Positions 31,582 through 59,605 of a stretch of 64,000 nt of DNA are shown here, piece after piece (within the stretch, counting starts at the first letter, position 1; the number at the start of each line of letters is the position of its first letter). Source of the DNA: Cellulosilyticum sp. (GTDB taxonomy: Bacteria; Bacillota; Clostridia; Lachnospirales; Cellulosilyticaceae); the NCBI GenBank assembly GCA_015058045.1, contig SVDC01000002.1, positions 62,001 to 126,000 of the forward strand, read 5' to 3'. The notes under the pieces are model-generated. The model had not been told where the DNA came from. It was given only the letters and a program-made list of their open reading frames with translations, and made no database searches. The position numbers were made by a program, and so were the translations under genes.

Positions 31582-33810
31582 TTAACGTTGTTTATCGATT
31601 TCCTTTTTAAGGATTTCAACAAAGCGTTTAGGCATTTTACTTAGGTCAGTAATTTCCAAGAATTGAGGTGCAATCTTTTTAGATACGCCATATTCATACA
31701 AATCTTTGATTTCATCTGCATCATTGCCGATACCTGCTGTAATAATAGAAATTCCTTGCTTTGCACAATTTTTTTCAATTTCTACAATATCAAGCTTTGC
31801 ATTACCAGAATCTGACATCTCATAATTGCTTGGCTTATCTTTTATATAATAAAAGCCATAATTGCCATCGTTTGGAGCTCCATCCGAAATGATAATTAAT
31901 ATCTTTTCAGCAGCTTGTTCCTTTGATAATTTCTCTGCGCAGTAACGTAGAGCATAACCATCACGATTACAACCACCTACATAATTTTCTATGTTAGCAA
32001 TGCGATACAAGTCTTTTCCATCGATAGAATCAAATTCTGCAAATGAACTAAGTCGTACTGTACCTGACTTTTGATGTCCATAACAGCTAAATCTGATATC
32101 TAACTCTTTACAAAACTTATAAATAAGCATTGCGCTTTTTCTAGCAGCCTCAATTGATGGGCCATTCATAGAACCAGACATATCTATCAAAAGACAAATA
32201 CTCATATCTGGAATGTTCTCTGGTGCTTTTTTAGAAGAAAATCTCTTTAAATCAGTTCTATATGCCTGTTTTAAACGACGGCCAGAATAAAGACCATTAA
32301 GATTATCTCCAATTTGCAGATCGTGAATCTGCTTTACCCATTCTTTGATTAATCGCTTTAGGATTGTATCACATTCCTTATTGATTTCATCAAAATCTCT
32401 ACATTTACTAGTATCTGTAATTCGAGTTATGGTTGAACGGACACCTCTATGAAAATCGCTAAAGTCCATATCATTTTTAAGTGTATTACACTGCTTTTGA
32501 AGTTCTTCTTCCTGCTTTTGCTCAACTTTTTCCTGTGCGACGTTATTTTCTACATCTGAAAGCTCATTAGAGCAATCTCCGTGGTTAATAACATCATTTG
32601 AAGGAGCTTGTTGTTGCATAGAGTTAGATGAACTAGAACCACTTGAGTCTGAATTATCATCAAGAGGAGAGTAGTTGGCGTTAGAAGAATCACCTTCTTC
32701 CCCAGATAAATCATCACAAAGGTTTAGGTTATTATTTGAAGCATCTGAATTTCCAGACTCTCCATCAGAACCATCAGCAGACTCATCTGATGCACTATCA
32801 TTAGCTTCATCTGAGCCCTTCCCATTATTCGAGTCGGTATCATCTGCATCGCCCTGGTTTGATGACGAATTTTGTTCTTCATCGCCAGAATCATTTCCAT
32901 TTGCAGGGTCATTTGAATCAGAACTATCGGAACTAGAACTATTATCATTACTTGATGAATCATCGTTGTTAGATGAATCGTTCTTGTTCTGATTTTTCTT
33001 TTCTTCCTCTTTCTCCTGCAAGAAGTTGATTAATTCAGATACTATAGTTACACAGTAGTAACATCTTTTCTTTGAACTTTGCTCTATAAGAGAAGCATTT
33101 ATTGTAGGCTTCAGATACTCTAAAGCTTCTGTTGCTTCAATATTATCGAAGTTATCTGGTTCAAATCCATTTACTGCATAAGCTAATAAAAGATTTAAAA
33201 AGTCAATGACTGTATCACCAGACGAACCATTCGACTCCATGGTTTCTCTTTCCATTGCCGAAGCAAGTTGTCTCATAGCGGTGAGGTATTTTCTGTAACC
33301 CATATAGGTACTATTGAATGTACGCTCTATAGCTCCATCTTCAATGATGTTAGAGACTCTAAGAAAAAGACCTTTTACTTGTCCTCTTTGTTCTGGGAAC
33401 TTTTGCAAGTAAGCATTAAGTGCTCTTGCCTCATAGGACTGAATAGTGCCCACCTTTATTTGATTAACAATTCTGTTTGTTTCCTTAAAGTCAGTCCATA
33501 ATCTATGGCTGACTTCGTGACAAAGACAACCGATTAGAGCAGGAAAGCGGTGCTTTCTATCTAATCCCTGCAAGTAAACGTTATTTGCATTAAGTGTAAA
33601 CTCACAATTTTCATCAACACAGGCAACAATGCCTTCTTCGTCGCCCCAGAAAACGTTAATCTTGAATTTAGGCATATTATATATTTTACCAACGCCCCTA
33701 AGTAAGCTTTCGGCAAAATCTTTAAAAGCAGACGAAAGAAACACTTCCTTATCGGTTAGCTTGTCTCTTTCCGCTGATATAGCTCTTTTTAAGCTATTCT
33801 TGAAGTTCAT
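31582..33810 (-). CDS. VWA-domain protein, CobT-like organisation with long acidic/Ser-rich linker
   Basis: C-terminal MIDAS DMSGSMNGPSIEAARK, S/D/N-rich linker of about 150 aa, HEVSHRLW near N-terminus. Confidence 0.75.
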   Translation of the reverse strand: MNFKNSLKRAISAERDKLTDKEVFLSSAFKDFAESLLRGVGKIYNMPKFKINVFWGDEEGIVACVDENCEFTLNANNVYLQGLDRKHRFPALIGCLCHEVSHRLWTDFKETNRIVNQIKVGTIQSYEARALNAYLQKFPEQRGQVKGLFLRVSNIIEDGAIERTFNSTYMGYRKYLTAMRQLASAMERETMESNGSSGDTVIDFLNLLLAYAVNGFEPDNFDNIEATEALEYLKPTINASLIEQSSKKRCYYCVTIVSELINFLQEKEEEKKNQNKNDSSNNDDSSSNDNSSSSDSSDSNDPANGNDSGDEEQNSSSNQGDADDTDSNNGKGSDEANDSASDESADGSDGESGNSDASNNNLNLCDDLSGEEGDSSNANYSPLDDNSDSSGSSSSNSMQQQAPSNDVINHGDCSNELSDVENNVAQEKVEQKQEEELQKQCNTLKNDMDFSDFHRGVRSTITRITDTSKCRDFDEINKECDTILKRLIKEWVKQIHDLQIGDNLNGLYSGRRLKQAYRTDLKRFSSKKAPENIPDMSICLLIDMSGSMNGPSIEAARKSAMLIYKFCKELDIRFSCYGHQKSGTVRLSSFAEFDSIDGKDLYRIANIENYVGGCNRDGYALRYCAEKLSKEQAAEKILIIISDGAPNDGNYGFYYIKDKPSNYEMSDSGNAKLDIVEIEKNCAKQGISIITAGIGNDADEIKDLYEYGVSKKIAPQFLEITDLSKMPKRFVEILKKEIDKQR

Positions 33811-42515: not shown

Positions 42516-45329
42516 ATGAGTGACGAAAAAAGGCGTGAAGCCGCTAGACAGTTTTACCAAAAGTGGGTTAACAGGGGAAAGGAAGATGAAGATGACAGGT
42601 CTTATTGGCTTGATTTCCTTCAGAAAGTATTAGGCATTGATGACGCTACGGACCGAATCGACTTCCAGAAGAAGGTTATCGGCCCAGATGGAAATACAAA
42701 AAGAATTGATGCTTATATCCCTGAAACAAGGGTTTTAATTGAGCAAAAAAGCTTAAACATTGATTTATCTAAGCCTCAATCTGGCCATAATGGAATGACA
42801 CCATATGAGCAGGCTAAAATGTATGATAATAGCCTTCCTGTATCAGAAAAGGCTAAATGGATTATCCTATCAAATTTCGCTGAAATATGGGTATATGATA
42901 TGGATACAGCTCGTCCAGAGCCAGTGAAGTACTCTCTCATCGAGCTTCGTGATAAGTACCCTGAATTTGAGTTTCTTATCAATCAAAAACAGACTAAAAT
43001 TACACACGAAATGGAAGTATCTGTTAAGGCGGGCGAATTTGTCGGTCTTATTTACGATGCTTTATATAAGCAGTATAAAGATCCAGACGAAGCTAGTCTT
43101 CGCTCTTTAAATATGCTTTGTGTAAGACTAGTATTCTGCCTTTATGCTGAAGATGCTCTTATCTTTGGCTCTAATGGCCACATGTTCCATGACTACTTAG
43201 AACAGTTTGAAACCAAGGACTTGAGACGAGCTCTTATCGATTTATTTAAGGTGTTAGACCAGGACCCAGAGAAGGGCCAACGTGACAAATACCTTGATGA
43301 AAGTCTTGCAGCATTTCCTTATGTAAATGGTGGATTATTTGCTGATGAAGACATTGAAATTCCACCTTTCACAGATGAAATTAGAGACATTCTTCTTTCC
43401 AAAGCTTCTGCAGGGTTTGATTGGAGTCAAATATCTCCTACTATCTTCGGAGCTGTATTCGAGTCAACCTTAAACCCAGAAACTAGACGTTCTGGCGGAA
43501 TGCACTATACATCTATTGAGAATATTCATAAGGTTATTGACCCATTATTCTTAGATGAATTAAAAGCTGAATTTGAAGAAATCAATGCCATCCAGGTTGA
43601 AAAGACTAAGAAAGCAAGATTGGAAAAATTTCAAGATAAGCTCTCTTCTCTCTCATGGTTTGACCCTGCTTGTGGAAGTGGTAATTTCCTCACAGAAACA
43701 TTTATCTCTATCCGTAGACTTGAAAATAAGGTTATTAGAGCAATTCTTGATTGCGACAAGAAACAAGTAGATGGCCAGATTGTCATAGGCGCAGTTATTA
43801 ACCCTATAAAGGTTGGTATTGAACAGTTCTATGGTATTGAGATTAATGACTTTGCCGTAACGGTAGCAAAAACGGCCCTGTGGATAGCGGAAAGTCAGAT
43901 GATGAAAGAAACTGAAGATATGATCCATATGTCTTTAGATTTCCTGCCACTTAAAACAAACGCATTTATTCATGAAGGTAACGCTCTTCAGATTAAATGG
44001 GAAGACATTGTAGATAAGAGAAAACTTAGCTATATCATGGGTAATCCTCCATTTTTAGGCTCATCTTTGCAGTCATCTTCTCAAAAAAAAGATATTCAAT
44101 CAGTATATATCGATGAAAAGGGTAAGACTTACAAAGCAGCAGGTAAGATTGATTATGTATCTGGTTGGTATTTTAAGGCTGCTGAATACATCAATAATAC
44201 AAATATACAAGTTGCATTTGTTTCAACTAATTCAATAACACAGGGCGAACAAGTTGCTAGTATATGGAAACCTTTATATGAACGCTTCGGTATTCATATA
44301 GATTTTGCATATAGAACATTTATATGGGATAGTGAAGCTTCTGCCAAGGCTAACGTACATTGTGTAATAATATCTTTTAGTTGTGCTCATAAAAATAGTG
44401 AAAATAGGATATATTATGATTCATACTATCAAGCTGCTAGTAATATAAATGCATATCTACTTGATGCTGATAATATTTTCGTAGAAGGTAGAACAAAAGC
44501 ATTATGTGAGGTCCCTGAAATATGTAGTGGTTTTAAAGCCGCAGATAACGGTTATCTTATTTTAAATGAAGACGAGAAAAAAGAACTTCTTTCAAAAGAA
44601 CCATCTGCTTCTAAATGGATTAGACGATATTCTATGGGAGTTGAATTTATAAATAAAATACCAAGATATTGTCTATGGCTAAAGGATATTTCTCCTACAG
44701 AGCTTCGCAATAGTGTTGAAATAAGAAAAAGAGTCCAAGCATGCAAAGAATGGCGTGAAAATGCTACTCCTACAGGTGACGCATTTAAGCTAAAGGATAC
44801 TCCACATTTATTTAGGCCATGCAAACAGTTTAAGGATAGTACGTATATTGCCATACCTCTTGTATCTTCATCTAATCGTAGATACATACCTATGGATTAT
44901 ATTAACGATGGAATGATACCAGGTAACAATCTTTTCTGTGTTTTTGATGCATTACCATATCATTTTGGAGTCCTTACATCTAATGTACATATGGCTTGGA
45001 TAAGGGCAATAGGTGGATTTTTAAAAAGTGATTGGCGATATTCAAAAGATATCGTTTACAATAATTTTCCATGGCCAACACCAACGGAAGAACAAAAGAA
45101 AAGGATTGAAGAGACTGCTCAGGGCATTCTTGACGCTAGAGCTAAGTATCCTAACTCGTCTCTTGCTGATCTTTATGATCCACTCACAATGCCTCCAGAA
45201 TTATTAAAGGCTCATCAGCTTAACGATAAAGCTGTAATGCAAGCATATGGATTTTCTATTAAGGATACTTCTGAAGCTGATTGTGTAGCTAAACTAATGC
45301 AAATGTATAAGGAGTTAACTGAAGGATAG
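42516..45329 (+). CDS. MmeI/type IIL-like single-chain restriction-modification enzyme
   Basis: 937 aa; N-terminal RIDAYIPETRVLIEQKS (D-x-ExK), FDPACGSGNFL, IMGNPPFLGSS, C-terminal target-recognition-like region. Confidence 0.85.
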   Translation: MSDEKRREAARQFYQKWVNRGKEDEDDRSYWLDFLQKVLGIDDATDRIDFQKKVIGPDGNTKRIDAYIPETRVLIEQKSLNIDLSKPQSGHNGMTPYEQAKMYDNSLPVSEKAKWIILSNFAEIWVYDMDTARPEPVKYSLIELRDKYPEFEFLINQKQTKITHEMEVSVKAGEFVGLIYDALYKQYKDPDEASLRSLNMLCVRLVFCLYAEDALIFGSNGHMFHDYLEQFETKDLRRALIDLFKVLDQDPEKGQRDKYLDESLAAFPYVNGGLFADEDIEIPPFTDEIRDILLSKASAGFDWSQISPTIFGAVFESTLNPETRRSGGMHYTSIENIHKVIDPLFLDELKAEFEEINAIQVEKTKKARLEKFQDKLSSLSWFDPACGSGNFLTETFISIRRLENKVIRAILDCDKKQVDGQIVIGAVINPIKVGIEQFYGIEINDFAVTVAKTALWIAESQMMKETEDMIHMSLDFLPLKTNAFIHEGNALQIKWEDIVDKRKLSYIMGNPPFLGSSLQSSSQKKDIQSVYIDEKGKTYKAAGKIDYVSGWYFKAAEYINNTNIQVAFVSTNSITQGEQVASIWKPLYERFGIHIDFAYRTFIWDSEASAKANVHCVIISFSCAHKNSENRIYYDSYYQAASNINAYLLDADNIFVEGRTKALCEVPEICSGFKAADNGYLILNEDEKKELLSKEPSASKWIRRYSMGVEFINKIPRYCLWLKDISPTELRNSVEIRKRVQACKEWRENATPTGDAFKLKDTPHLFRPCKQFKDSTYIAIPLVSSSNRRYIPMDYINDGMIPGNNLFCVFDALPYHFGVLTSNVHMAWIRAIGGFLKSDWRYSKDIVYNNFPWPTPTEEQKKRIEETAQGILDARAKYPNSSLADLYDPLTMPPELLKAHQLNDKAVMQAYGFSIKDTSEADCVAKLMQMYKELTEG

Positions 45330-53604: not shown

Positions 53605-54395
53605 TTACGCTGCCTTCTTAAGTGTTTCTTTAGAAGTATTAGTGGCAAGCTTCATATCACTGATTAATTCTGGATACTGAGCAAATAATGATTTAAAAAT
53701 GTGCTCTAATACTGGAACGCATATAGAGTTCCCTGCGAGCTTTGCAATCTGTGCTTCAGTCAGTCCTGCTTTAATCATTTTATCATAGTCTTCATCTCTG
53801 AATCCCATAAGTCTTAACTTTTCCTTTGATGTAAACATTCTAAATTTATCATCAATAAGAACGCCCTGACGAGGCGATGTTGTAAGTGTGCTTGCGCAAT
53901 CTCCAACTCTGCCCCTACGGTTCTTTGAGTTTGGAAAAGCTAAATCTACTCGCTGATATTCATTGATAGGCACATAGCCAACACCTGCACCAAAGTCACC
54001 TTTTACAGCTTGTTTTACATACCACTGACCATTTACTTTCTTCGTAATTGCAAGCTCAGTATCTGTAAAGCTATTGTCTTCAAAACTTGCAGACAAGTCT
54101 AAGAACTGCTTAAGTGTATATCTTTCCTCTTCAGGTATAGCCTTTGGCATTTCAAAAACACCGTTTCTATCAGCAATATCATTAAGTACAGAAATACAAA
54201 AGAAACGATCTCTTGCTTGTGGAATGCCGTATTCTGATGCATCAAGCATATATGGAACCATAATGCTTCGCTCTGATACGTAACCACCTTTATCTACGTA
54301 TTTATTGCTACCACAAAATGTATTTGTGTAGCCGTAAGATTCCATAGTTCTAAGATAGTTTTCTAGTACTTCTGCATGCGAATATGCCATGTTAG
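53605..54395 (-). CDS. C5-cytosine DNA methyltransferase, 3' exon (C-terminal part)
   Basis: continues in frame from exon 1 after intron excision (ENV|PNMAYSHAEVL...); DYDKMIKAGLTEAQIAKLAGNSICVPVLEHIF is motif X-like. Confidence 0.82.
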
Positions 54396-57173
54396 ATAGC
54401 GATAGGTAATCTTTTGATACAATCTCCAGATTTTCCCCCGCTCCGCACCGTGCATGCGACTTTCACCGCACACGGCGCACCCTCGTTTTAATGTTTTCTT
54501 CAATTACTAGCTTATAACAAACTCCATTTTTCGAAATTAACAGAACTAGTTTTTAACAGCTATAATTGGTTCTAACTCAATCAACTTTCTTAATTTATTC
54601 AACTTACTTAATTGCATTTCATCTAAATTTAATATCTTTAGATATTTATTGATTGTCTCAGCTCTCGTGGCATGCAGTAATATGTGAACGTCTTCTAGTA
54701 TTAGAATTAGGTTCGCATATTTGTCGCTTCCACCAAGAGATTTAGGAATTTTATGGTGACAGTGGATTTCACTAGCATTTTCGAATTCCTTATCAGTTAT
54801 ATAACATTTGCCCATTTGTGCTGAGAATAATGATATACGATTATCTGCATATTCAACCGTACCATGTACAGTCTGTCGCATCAATTCGTGCATTACTCTG
54901 GTGTTAATGCTCAAGTCTTTGTGCATCATCGCACGTCCTTCCTTAGTGTACGGAGTCTTGCCTCTTTTAAGGTTAGACGGGGCTTTGGTTTGTACATAAC
55001 TTATTGGATAGATTGGAGTACCTGTTGCCTTATCAAAGCGTAGCGTTTTGGATTTTCCATATCGCTGTTTTTCGTTTGGCGTTAGTTCTCTTCCTTTGCG
55101 AGAAAGTCTACCCTTTTCTCTTGTTGTTCTGAGCTGATGCATCATCACATCATTAATCAACCATGCTACTCTAGCAAAGTCTTTATTAATGTGTGAAGCG
55201 TGTTGATAGTAATTCTGCATACCCATTACCATTGAGTTATATCTCAAGGCTTGAGTAAGTGCGTCTTTATCATCTTTTGGATGTGCAATTCTCTTAATTT
55301 GTTGTTTTAATTTTTCAGTTTCACGAATTAAGTTCTTGTCTGCTACGTGTGACTCTGTAACAAACTTTCCTTTCTTTGGACGAAGACTAATTTTAAACCC
55401 TAAGAACTCACAATATTGCTTTTCCATATTAACTACCTTCGTTTTCTCTTCTGAGATATCAAGGTTAAGTCTTTGTTTAAGCCATTGTGTCACTGCATAT
55501 TTTGTCTTTAATGCAGATTCTTTAGTTCTACACAGTATCCTAAAGTCATCTGCATATCGTACAATATACATTTCTTTGAGATTAGTCTTCTTCATTGCCC
55601 TATATCCGCTGCCTTTGTTCTCGCTTCCATTTTTGTTAATCGTAACTGCATATTTGTATGCAACTGGATTCTTTTCCCATTGACTTTCAATCCAATGGTC
55701 GAGTTCGTTGAGAACAATGTTCGCAAGTAGAGGAGAAATAATACCTCCCTGAGGGGTTCCTTTATGGGGAATGTATTTCTCACCATTAGGCATCATAATA
55801 GGTGCTTTAAGGATTTGTTTGATTACATAGATAAGCTGTTTGTCTTGAATTCCAAGTGCCCATATTTGTTTGATAAGCTTTTGATGGTCAACATTGTCGA
55901 AGAATCCTCTAATATCAAATTCCACAACATAATGTAATCCCGTATAAGTGCTGTATCGTTCTAACTCAGCGATAGCATTCTCAGTAGAGCGTCCTGGTCT
56001 AAAACCATAGCTGTGCTCACTGAATTTGGCTTCACATATAGGCTCTATTACTTGCTTGATACATTGTTGTATCAATCTATCCCACATACAAGGGATACCA
56101 AGAGGCCTAACAGAACCATTTGGTTTTGGAATGTCTTTTCTTCTAACAGCTCTAGGGTTGTATCCTCTTTTTCCTGTAACGAATTTTCTGACATTAGAAA
56201 CTATCTCTTCAGAACTTAGCTTTTTCAAGTCATTGATACTAAGCTTGTCCGTTCCTGGAGTTATGCTGCCATGATTGGCTTTAATGTTTCTATATGCTAG
56301 AAGAATATTTTGCGAGCTTAAAATTAATGGCATCAATGAGTCAAAGATTTCCCCATCCTTTGCCTTAGCATAAAGCTCATCAAATGTTTCCTGCATATCA
56401 TAATATTCGTTATGACGGATACTATCCACTTTTGTTTGTAGCTCGTTGTCTTGTCTGTTTCGATACTGTTTTGCCATAGGGCATCACCTCCTCTTATCAG
56501 GAGTGACTTCTTTTTATCTTACTCGAAATCCCTATTACAAACTATGTATTGAATCATTCATTAAAACGACTTGAGGCCATCATTCCTTTTCCCATTACAG
56601 GAAATATCATCACTTCGACCTCTACTTTTCGGCATTAGTTAAGGAGCTTATTGTTCTTCGTCTCCAACATCAATAGATGTCTAATACCTTTCCTTGTTCC
56701 GATAATCCTATCTTTACATATACCCTTAGGTTCCTACTCTAGGCCTGTTTTACTTGAGTATGCCTGTAACATACTATGGACTTTCATAACGTACAAATTT
56801 TACTCATCCACATAAAACTCCTAATTAAAGGAAGATACATTTCTATATCTTGGAAATATAGACCCGTACATTCGCAGGTTCGTCAGTTTCTTCGGCTCGA
56901 AACATTCTAACCATAGGTATTTTATAGACCTCCGGCATATAGGGTATATAGCTCACCTCTGAGCCACTTTCGTCACCATTATGTGTTACGATACCTCTCT
57001 GCCGACTTTAGCGGGCTTCACACATCTTAGTTTTCACTATATGATGCATGCCGCAGTATCAAGGGAAGCGTTTCAGGGCGTTACCCCATCATTCCACTTC
57101 TCGGATTGTCAGTTTACAAACTGATTATAATTTCAGCTTGTAGCCAACCTTTTCAGTTAGCAACAAGTCGCAC
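54396..57173 (-). mobile_element. group II intron, complete, inserted in the methyltransferase gene
   Basis: 5' GTGCGAC; domain V GCGCCGTGTGCGGTGAAAGTCGCATGCACGGTGC (near 54455); 3' ...CTATCGCTAT; encoded RT/maturase; EBS1 GTACGTT (56788-56794) pairs IBS1 AACGTAC (57174-57180). Confidence 0.93.
54546..56477 (-). CDS. ltrA: group II intron reverse transcriptase/maturase with HNH endonuclease domain
   Basis: IVRYADDFRILCRT, GTPQGGIISPLLANI, C-terminal HCHHKIPKSLGGSDKYANLILI. Confidence 0.95.
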   Translation of the reverse strand: MAKQYRNRQDNELQTKVDSIRHNEYYDMQETFDELYAKAKDGEIFDSLMPLILSSQNILLAYRNIKANHGSITPGTDKLSINDLKKLSSEEIVSNVRKFVTGKRGYNPRAVRRKDIPKPNGSVRPLGIPCMWDRLIQQCIKQVIEPICEAKFSEHSYGFRPGRSTENAIAELERYSTYTGLHYVVEFDIRGFFDNVDHQKLIKQIWALGIQDKQLIYVIKQILKAPIMMPNGEKYIPHKGTPQGGIISPLLANIVLNELDHWIESQWEKNPVAYKYAVTINKNGSENKGSGYRAMKKTNLKEMYIVRYADDFRILCRTKESALKTKYAVTQWLKQRLNLDISEEKTKVVNMEKQYCEFLGFKISLRPKKGKFVTESHVADKNLIRETEKLKQQIKRIAHPKDDKDALTQALRYNSMVMGMQNYYQHASHINKDFARVAWLINDVMMHQLRTTREKGRLSRKGRELTPNEKQRYGKSKTLRFDKATGTPIYPISYVQTKAPSNLKRGKTPYTKEGRAMMHKDLSINTRVMHELMRQTVHGTVEYADNRISLFSAQMGKCYITDKEFENASEIHCHHKIPKSLGGSDKYANLILILEDVHILLHATRAETINKYLKILNLDEMQLSKLNKLRKLIELEPIIAVKN

Positions 57174-57657
57174 GTACGTTTTCCCATATAACAACCTTTG
57201 GCTGTCTTGTGAGCTCTCTATACCCATCAGAAGGGTTAGGGTCTAATATCTGAAGTGTTCTCTCATAAAGAATAGAACGGCCAGTATTTATATCGTTTTT
57301 GCCCTCCCTGCTGAAATCCTGACATGGTGAGCCATGTACCAGGATATCTACATTCATATTCCATAGACGTATATCCTGTGGTCTATTAGATAAATCAAAC
57401 ATCTGATTATAGGCCTGTACTGCAAAAGGAAGAACTTCGACATAATCGATACTCTTTACCTTTTCAGCTGCCAAGTTTCTAAGCTGACGCTTATTTGCAT
57501 CTGGGTTTGAATCCTTAACCATCTGTGATATTACGTTTTCTAATGCTCTTCTTGGGGCTCCAATACCACCAAAAAGTTCAAGTAAGTGAAGTGGCTGTGA
57601 CTGCATATCACAATCTACTACATTTTTCTCTTTGTGATTCTTAAAATCACGACTCAT
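57174..57657 (-). CDS. C5-cytosine DNA methyltransferase, 5' exon (N-terminal part)
   Basis: [44 protein letters not shown]. Confidence 0.88.
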
Positions 57658-58072: not shown

Positions 58073-59515
58073 TTATGCTACTGCCAATGAAAGTCCAAGG
58101 CTCTCGTTTGAATATCTGTAAAGAGCATTTTTAATGATGCTCTTCGCAAATGAGGAGATTGCCTGTGTTACGCCATTTCCGCACTGTTGCTGTCTATCGT
58201 TTATAGAACCCAAAAACTTAAAGTTCTTATCAAGTCCCATAATAGCAGCTGCCTCAGATACAGATAAAATTCTGTTTTCTGTAGGATGTGTGAGGTTTAC
58301 CTTACGCCAGTTTGTAATGGTTACAGAAGGCTCATTTTCGTCTAAACGTCTATAGACATTACTATGACGATCTAAATGTTCCATCTCCTTGATGTACTTA
58401 TAATTTCCACCTTGAGGAACCTGAGCCATCTTAGCCTGCGTAGATGCCGAAGCTTTAGTAATATCATTGTAGTTGTACCACTCTGATGTTACTTTCTTTA
58501 AAGCATCCTTTACTACCTTTTTTGATGTAAGGCATACATCTGGAATAACAATCTTTCCCATTGCTTTGATTGAACCTATTAATAGCATTCTTTTACGTTT
58601 GCTATATCCACCTACTTCCCAGTCATTAACGACTGAATAAGTGATGTTATAGTCATCAGAAAGAGCTGTTAGTACTCTTTCTAAGTACTTGCCCTTTTCC
58701 TTTGTAATAAACTGCTCTACATTTTCAATCAAAAACATAAGTGGCTTCTTAGCCTGTACAATACGAATGTAATCATCAATAAGAAGTCTCTTTGAATTAT
58801 CCTGCACCTCATTGCCCGCTCTATTAGCATTGCTATATCCCTGGCAACATGGGCCACCGATAATTAAATCAGCGTTTGGAACCTGAGCTTCTTTTAAATC
58901 TCGAATATCCATACATAAGATATGATCTCCAATGTTAGCTTTATAAGTTTCGCAAGCGGATTTATCAAAATCCACAGCAAACTTAATATCAAAGCTTTCA
59001 TCTTTCTTGAACGGATAATCAAGTAACCCTGCTCCAGAAAACAGTGAAACTGTATCATACACATACGATAAATCAGTTCTAGTCTTCTGAGAAAACAGGC
59101 CTGAAGCTGTGAGCATATCAACTAAAGCTGAGTCATGCTCGATAAGAGAACTCTTATCAATTTCAAAGGTAATATCTTCAGATTTGTCGATTAAATCAAC
59201 AATATCTCTATCAGATAAACCTTCTGTATTTACATTCTTTTTTATTACATGGACGATAATCTTATTATCTAAGACTTCTACTTCCATGTATGCTGCCATG
59301 CTCATCACCTGTCTGATTTCCTCATTTCTAAGGTCAACAAGTGGCTTTGCATTAGCACCTTTTCTACTCATCTTATATTTGCCTTTTTCATCGGCTAAGA
59401 TGATTACCTCTGAGCTTGCATTATCTACAATATATCTATAGTGTGTGCCTGCCCTAAAATGTTCGTTTTCTGCAAATGAGAATGTTAGTCCTCTATTGCT
59501 TTTCTTAATACGCAT
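58073..59515 (-). CDS. second C5-cytosine DNA methyltransferase
   Basis: DTVSLFSGAGLLDYPF, LIIGGPCCQGYSNANRAG, FLIENVEQF; ATG at 59515 after GGAGG. Confidence 0.88.
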   Translation of the reverse strand: MRIKKSNRGLTFSFAENEHFRAGTHYRYIVDNASSEVIILADEKGKYKMSRKGANAKPLVDLRNEEIRQVMSMAAYMEVEVLDNKIIVHVIKKNVNTEGLSDRDIVDLIDKSEDITFEIDKSSLIEHDSALVDMLTASGLFSQKTRTDLSYVYDTVSLFSGAGLLDYPFKKDESFDIKFAVDFDKSACETYKANIGDHILCMDIRDLKEAQVPNADLIIGGPCCQGYSNANRAGNEVQDNSKRLLIDDYIRIVQAKKPLMFLIENVEQFITKEKGKYLERVLTALSDDYNITYSVVNDWEVGGYSKRKRMLLIGSIKAMGKIVIPDVCLTSKKVVKDALKKVTSEWYNYNDITKASASTQAKMAQVPQGGNYKYIKEMEHLDRHSNVYRRLDENEPSVTITNWRKVNLTHPTENRILSVSEAAAIMGLDKNFKFLGSINDRQQQCGNGVTQAISSFAKSIIKNALYRYSNESLGLSLAVA

Positions 59516-59542
59516 CTTTATTAACCTCCTAAAAATAAAATA

Positions 59543-59605
59543 AGCCACCCGTCGGTGACTAAAACTATAATCACCTTCTGGTGTCTCTTACGTCTAAGAG
59601 GATTC
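59543..59605 (-). ncRNA. structured 5' UTR (alternative-pairing leader), shares 18-bp core
   Basis: AGCCACCCGTCGGTGACT; CACCAGAAGGTG; alternative GGTGATTA:TTTAGTCACC. Confidence 0.68.

Follow-up and report, generated by a model that had tools for sequence, protein, structure and literature searches.

A group II intron within a plasmid methyltransferase gene

Gene callers would report two unrelated partial methyltransferases and a reverse transcriptase at the locus studied here, which raises the question of whether these are parts of a single enzyme gene and, if so, how that gene might yield its protein. The window (the whole stretch of DNA analysed, 64,000 nt of Cellulosilyticum sp. contig SVDC01000002.1) carries on its minus strand a C5-cytosine methyltransferase gene interrupted by a 2778-nt group II intron (54396..57173), and the correct reading is that of one interrupted enzyme gene. 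Exon 1 (57174..57657, minus strand) encodes motif I (FGGIG), motif IV (PCQ) and motif VI (ENV) and covers positions 3-112 of the PF00145 profile, as judged from the profile, an alignment to M.HhaI and the translation. Exon 2 (53605..54395, minus strand; PF00145 positions 121-323) supplies the remaining fold, the target-recognition region, motifs VIII to X and the stop codon. As an earlier note on this DNA had claimed, exon 1 ends at 57174 with TGG GAA AAC GTA C (TGGGAAAACGTAC), the intron starts with GTGCGAC and finishes in an AY end, and exon 2 starts at 54395 with CTAACATGG.

Joined at these boundaries, the exons (484 and 791 nt) restore the frame and encode 424 aa followed by a stop, with the intron in phase 1, splitting the Pro codon directly after ENV one base into the codon. 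The joined protein matches PF00145 as one full domain (positions 4-323/324, 119.9 bits, compared with 43 and 65.7 bits for the separate halves), and motifs I, IV (PCQ), VI (ENV), VIII and X come to lie in one chain only once the exons are joined, according to both the PF00145 profile and the M.HhaI alignment. In these motifs the protein aligns with M.HhaI-type C5 methyltransferases, the difference being the group II intron that breaks the present gene just one base past the ENV codons. The interruption had previously been placed at "motif IV (ENV)"; its position at ENV stands, but the motif number does not, since in the M.HhaI alignment the PCQ loop, which is motif IV and holds the catalytic Cys, lies within exon 1, while the ENV at the junction aligns to motif VI.

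A search for intron-less alleles had been proposed as a check of this junction. We therefore sought the closest homologue in a genome collection of 85,488 species and obtained one close relative, a continuous 415-aa ORF from an uncultured Lachnospiraceae (CAMVRS010000052.1) with 77% amino acid identity to the joined methyltransferase. At the junction it reads VIWENVPNMAYSH, gap-free and identical to the joined exons, as predicted. The two exons are about equally conserved relative to this homologue (128/162 identical residues in exon 1 and 189/247 in exon 2), with dN values of 0.205 and 0.212, dS being saturated. Listeria, Mammaliicoccus and Staphylococcus phages carry more distant homologues, also intron-less, at 33-41% identity.

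Natural two-subunit C5 methyltransferases such as M.AquI and M.EcoHK31I exist, and the enzyme might by analogy work unspliced, its halves being translated separately and then assembled. Both halves are indeed open: exon 1 forms a 166-aa ORF, running unjoined through five intron-coded residues (RATCC) to a stop, and exon 2 forms a 261-aa ORF from an ATG at 54390. This ATG, however, lacks a ribosome-binding site, the bases upstream of it are the conserved intron end, and it corresponds to a conserved internal Met (PNMAYSH) of the Lachnospiraceae homologue; the exon-2 ORF is therefore not a stand-alone gene, in line with the earlier note. The first half, moreover, would bear RATCC where motif VI continues. 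We regard separate translation of the halves as extremely improbable, and it can soundly be inferred that the methyltransferase would be active only if the intron splices.

Intron ends, RNA domains and the intron-encoded protein

The intron, delimited with the Rfam models RF02004 and RF00029 and by boundary and EBS tests, runs from 57173 to 54396 (GTGCGAC...CGCTAT). Its RNA ends, 5' GUGCG and 3' AU, conform to the group II consensus (5' GUGYG, 3' AY) and are common to its relatives, whose introns, apart from minor differences, start with GTGCGAC and finish with TTACCTATCGCTAT; the ends are the same in more than 25 of them. The part of domain I modelled by RF02004 lies at 56921..57117 (minus strand; 191.3 bits, E 3e-45). 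Domains V and VI occupy 54396..54480 (minus strand), where RF00029 matches over its full length (64.0 bits) and stops exactly at 54396, the boundary that had been proposed from the sequence. In the minimum-energy fold, a domain V hairpin is followed by a domain VI with a bulged A at 54403 (minus strand), which is the predicted branch-site adenosine; it lies at intron position -8, within the usual 7-8 nt of the 3' end, and the sequence CCTATCGCTAT is conserved in relatives. Domain V has CGC in place of AGC, as do nearly all relatives, a known variant (PMC4424553). No 3' extension (domain VII) is seen, and the intron stops at the canonical AY.

The intron-encoded protein (IEP; 54546..56477, minus strand) had been described as apparently intact, and this is borne out: its 643 codons are open, with a reverse transcriptase domain (YADD), a maturase (X) region and an HNH endonuclease domain, all full length. 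It scores 350.2 bits against TIGR04416 (group_II_RT_mat, cut-off 300), 145.7 bits against RVT_1 and 22.1 bits against the HNH profile (cut-off 21.4). The match to the GIIM maturase profile is weak (19.3 bits, below the cut-off of 23), but the equivalog model that spans the GIIM region passes. The IEP also has a strong ribosome-binding site of its own inside the intron, the Shine-Dalgarno sequence AGGAGGTG at 56485..56492 (minus strand).

Guide sequences covary with the exons that they recognise

Relatives of the IEP were gathered from the same family and order and from plasmids, phages and viral contigs, and 31 of their introns entered an alignment of domain I. In a permutation test over 30 introns, the summed EBS1-IBS1 pairing came to 156.5, compared with a mean of 116.3 among permutations, and not one of 5000 permutations attained the observed value; when the test was restricted to the 21 distinct loops, the observed sum was likewise never reached. 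We then compared each variable domain-I column with each flanking exon position in an unbiased scan over 23 distinct insertion sites. For exon positions -1 to -6 the best columns were 56795/56794-56789 (EBS1), and for -7 to -11 they were 56856-56852 (EBS2), with 22/23 complementary at -7, 21/22 at -10 and a weak signal at -11. For exon position +1 the best column was 56739 (EBS3), complementary in 20/21 cases against 7.1 expected.

In the window itself, the guides pair with their own flanks at 12 of 12 positions, all on the minus strand: EBS2 (TTTCC, 56852..56856) pairs 5/5 with IBS2 (GGAAA, exon -11 to -7, 57180..57184), EBS1 (GTACGT, 56789..56794) pairs 6/6 with IBS1 (ACGTAC, exon -6 to -1, 57174..57179), and EBS3 (G, 56739) pairs 1/1 with IBS3, the C at exon 2 position +1 (54395). 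A 7/7 pairing of EBS1 GTACGTT with AACGTAC had been claimed earlier. That pairing is present, and GTACGTT is found at a single place in the intron (56794-56788), where chance would give 0.17 occurrences, but the length given to EBS1 does not hold: exon position -7 covaries with EBS2 and so belongs to IBS2, and the seventh EBS1 pair is therefore probably incidental. The fit of the guides to these flanks makes a chimeric assembly unlikely. Covariation across the family also fixes the intron boundaries, giving the junction a second line of support that is independent of the intron-less homologue.

Introns of type IIB recognise the 3' exon through EBS3-IBS3 and those of type IIA through delta-delta', and EBS2 and EBS3 columns were both recovered here by covariation. 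EBS2 is absent from IIC introns under the subgroup rules (PMC4424553, together with general knowledge). The presence of EBS2 together with EBS3 thus points to an intron RNA of type IIB.

A probable splicing-dependent route to the methyltransferase

The reading that best accounts for these features, and which we consider very probably correct on the sequence evidence, is that of a mobile IIB-type intron with a complete IEP that would have inserted through EBS1/EBS2/EBS3 pairing and would be spliced out to give the 424-aa methyltransferase. The three guides would pair with DNA, and the intron would insert one base after the ENV codons of the plasmid methyltransferase gene. Gene and intron would be transcribed together, with the IEP translated from its intron-internal ribosome-binding site; the intron RNA would fold, the IEP would serve as maturase, and the branch-site A (54403) would attack the 5' splice site. 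Ligation of the exons would then produce the mRNA for the methyltransferase, with the predicted ligated junction GAAAACGTACCTAACATG. Transcription, maturase-assisted splicing, methylation activity and mobility we infer from what is established for group II introns in general.

Copies of group II introns in bacteria are described as mostly truncated or inactivated (PMC4424553), and only a single intron-bearing allele was found here, as might be the case if splicing has been lost and the methyltransferase has recently been broken, leaving the intron alone functional, or neither. Such decay is unlikely, in our judgement: the IEP is open over 643 aa with all its domains, D5, D6, the branch A and every guide pairing are intact, and both exons are intact and similarly conserved. 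The splicing-dependent route could also be extended by a further step, compatible with it, in which the spliced intron RNP would bind the ligated mRNA by EBS-IBS pairing, lower methyltransferase expression and thereby set the level of plasmid methylation. Ll.LtrB lowers the mRNA of a plasmid relaxase gene in this way (PMC6003770), and 11 pairs plus EBS3 would be available here; this applies to any such intron, though, and is not specific to the locus, and we hold the added step to be doubtful.

Relatives of the intron and the genes that they interrupt

Once their flanks are joined, the relatives are found to interrupt genes for gyrase B, anaerobic ribonucleotide reductase, VirD4-type coupling proteins, VirB4-type ATPases, and FtsK-like and N6-methylase/helicase-like proteins. 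In two cases from the same bacterial family, the intron lies in frame within the DADVDG motif of GyrB (SDADVDGYH^IRT) and in NrdD (FNT^KSDCCHIC). In the window's own genome, DnaE is split, likewise in frame, by a more distant group II intron. The site SREIENIF^ENSDF recurs four times in different genomes, and LLEGYGNDN^PGAKSQ is shared by two relatives; identical sites in VirB4-type and small conjugation proteins across genomes are as expected of homing into conjugative elements. Host genes of these kinds should be essential or required for conjugation, and since the relatives occupy them in frame, the lineage can be expected to be able to splice.

Group II introns have been said not to prefer conserved sites (PMC2814812), and the host sites of these relatives, in a sample drawn for another purpose, appear to be at odds with that statement. 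It is conceivable, though we think it rather unlikely, that the lineage prefers codons of catalytic or conserved motifs (ENV, DADVDG, the reductase Cys site, VirB4/VirD4) and gates the host gene by splicing or by EBS-mRNA targeting, which here would concern plasmid self-methylation during transfer. With GyrB and NrdD among its host proteins, this set of relatives bears on the question of whether group II introns in bacteria stay clear of conserved sites or take advantage of them.

No second intron-bearing allele was found in 395 + 399 genomes, viral contigs, phages and plasmids, leaving one known allele, and the viral contigs searched held no relatives of the methyltransferase or of its neighbour gene. 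Recurrent homing into methyltransferase motif VI was considered by scanning viral contigs and 395 genomes for the ENV codons followed by the intron start; outside the window, this gave only chance matches without an IEP, and the idea was rejected. A methyltransferase encoded on a C. difficile plasmid, which seemed to contain an insert, was also set aside, as it is one long ORF from which the intron is absent, probably with a longer target-recognition region. The host genome holds no further copies of the intron, only two diverged introns. Separately, one 2600-base contig of this genome is taken up almost completely by one group II intron, with hardly any flank; it probably represents a multi-copy host intron collapsed into a single sequence. 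In another genome, one intron has a DnaE-like upstream flank and a downstream flank resembling an ABC-type permease, perhaps reflecting rearrangement between two intron copies.

Comparison with known systems

In-frame interruption of conjugation and housekeeping genes by mobile group II introns is already known, and the element described here is a new, well-delimited case. Like Ll.LtrB, which interrupts the relaxase gene of Lactococcus plasmid pRS01, it is a mobile-type intron that encodes a reverse transcriptase/maturase/endonuclease protein and lies in frame in a plasmid gene. With Ll.LtrB the plasmid is conjugative and the host function depends on splicing, which for the present intron is predicted; Ll.LtrB also differs in being group IIA with a relaxase host gene, whereas the present intron has EBS1/EBS2/EBS3 of IIB type and a methyltransferase host. 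In Streptococcus suis ICEs, group II introns occupy conserved motifs in the genes for VirB4, helicase and coupling protein, and these genes need splicing in order to function (PMC12479173). These are the same kinds of gene that relatives of the present intron interrupt, and a C5-methyltransferase is not among the interrupted genes in the parts of that source consulted.

The present intron resembles the class B introns known from Firmicutes (PMC4424553, PMC3919590) in its IIB-type guides and its relatives in Firmicutes, and differs in that no domain VII is seen. An Enterococcus faecium plasmid intron (IEP WP_002286940.1, NZ_LR135484.1) has an IEP 58% identical to the one described here, the same intron ends and a match to the D1 model, but it lies in a Tn916-like transfer region near mobT and has no methyltransferase host. 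A literature search of incomplete coverage yielded no published precedent for a group II intron in a C5-methyltransferase gene; with the present case, a DNA-modification gene joins the known host genes of bacterial group II introns.

Plasmid context and neighbouring genes

The window belongs to a contig of 128.6 kb; the whole genome amounts to 4.16 Mb in 140 contigs. The window encodes Rep3, ParA, a TraG/VirB4-type ATPase, an actin-like protein, an integrase and an MmeI-like restriction-modification protein, and given Rep3, ParA, the TraG/VirB4-type ATPase and its other genes, the contig is most likely a large conjugation-type plasmid. Self-methylation probably matters for the entry of such a plasmid into restricting hosts. 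The MmeI-like protein (42516-45329, plus strand) is a restriction-modification fusion in which each of the five MmeI domains is present. A second, intact C5-methyltransferase gene lies directly upstream of the split gene (58073-59548, minus strand); its listed GTG start falls inside a hairpin leader, and the likely start is the ATG that follows AGGAGGTTAATAAAG, at about 59515.

Many genes of the plasmid, the methyltransferase included, are preceded by a terminator-like hairpin and U-run leading into an AGGAGG site, 20-37 nt before the start codon. Such leaders were found at 15/57 genes compared with 20/300 random segments. Examples on the minus strand lie at 57713-57686, 59560-59543 and roughly 36900-36878; others precede the genes that end at 33810, 50130 and 51901, and some of the hairpins share GGGTGGCTTATTTTATTTTTAGGAGG. 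Attenuation and protection of the 5' end are possible roles for these leaders.
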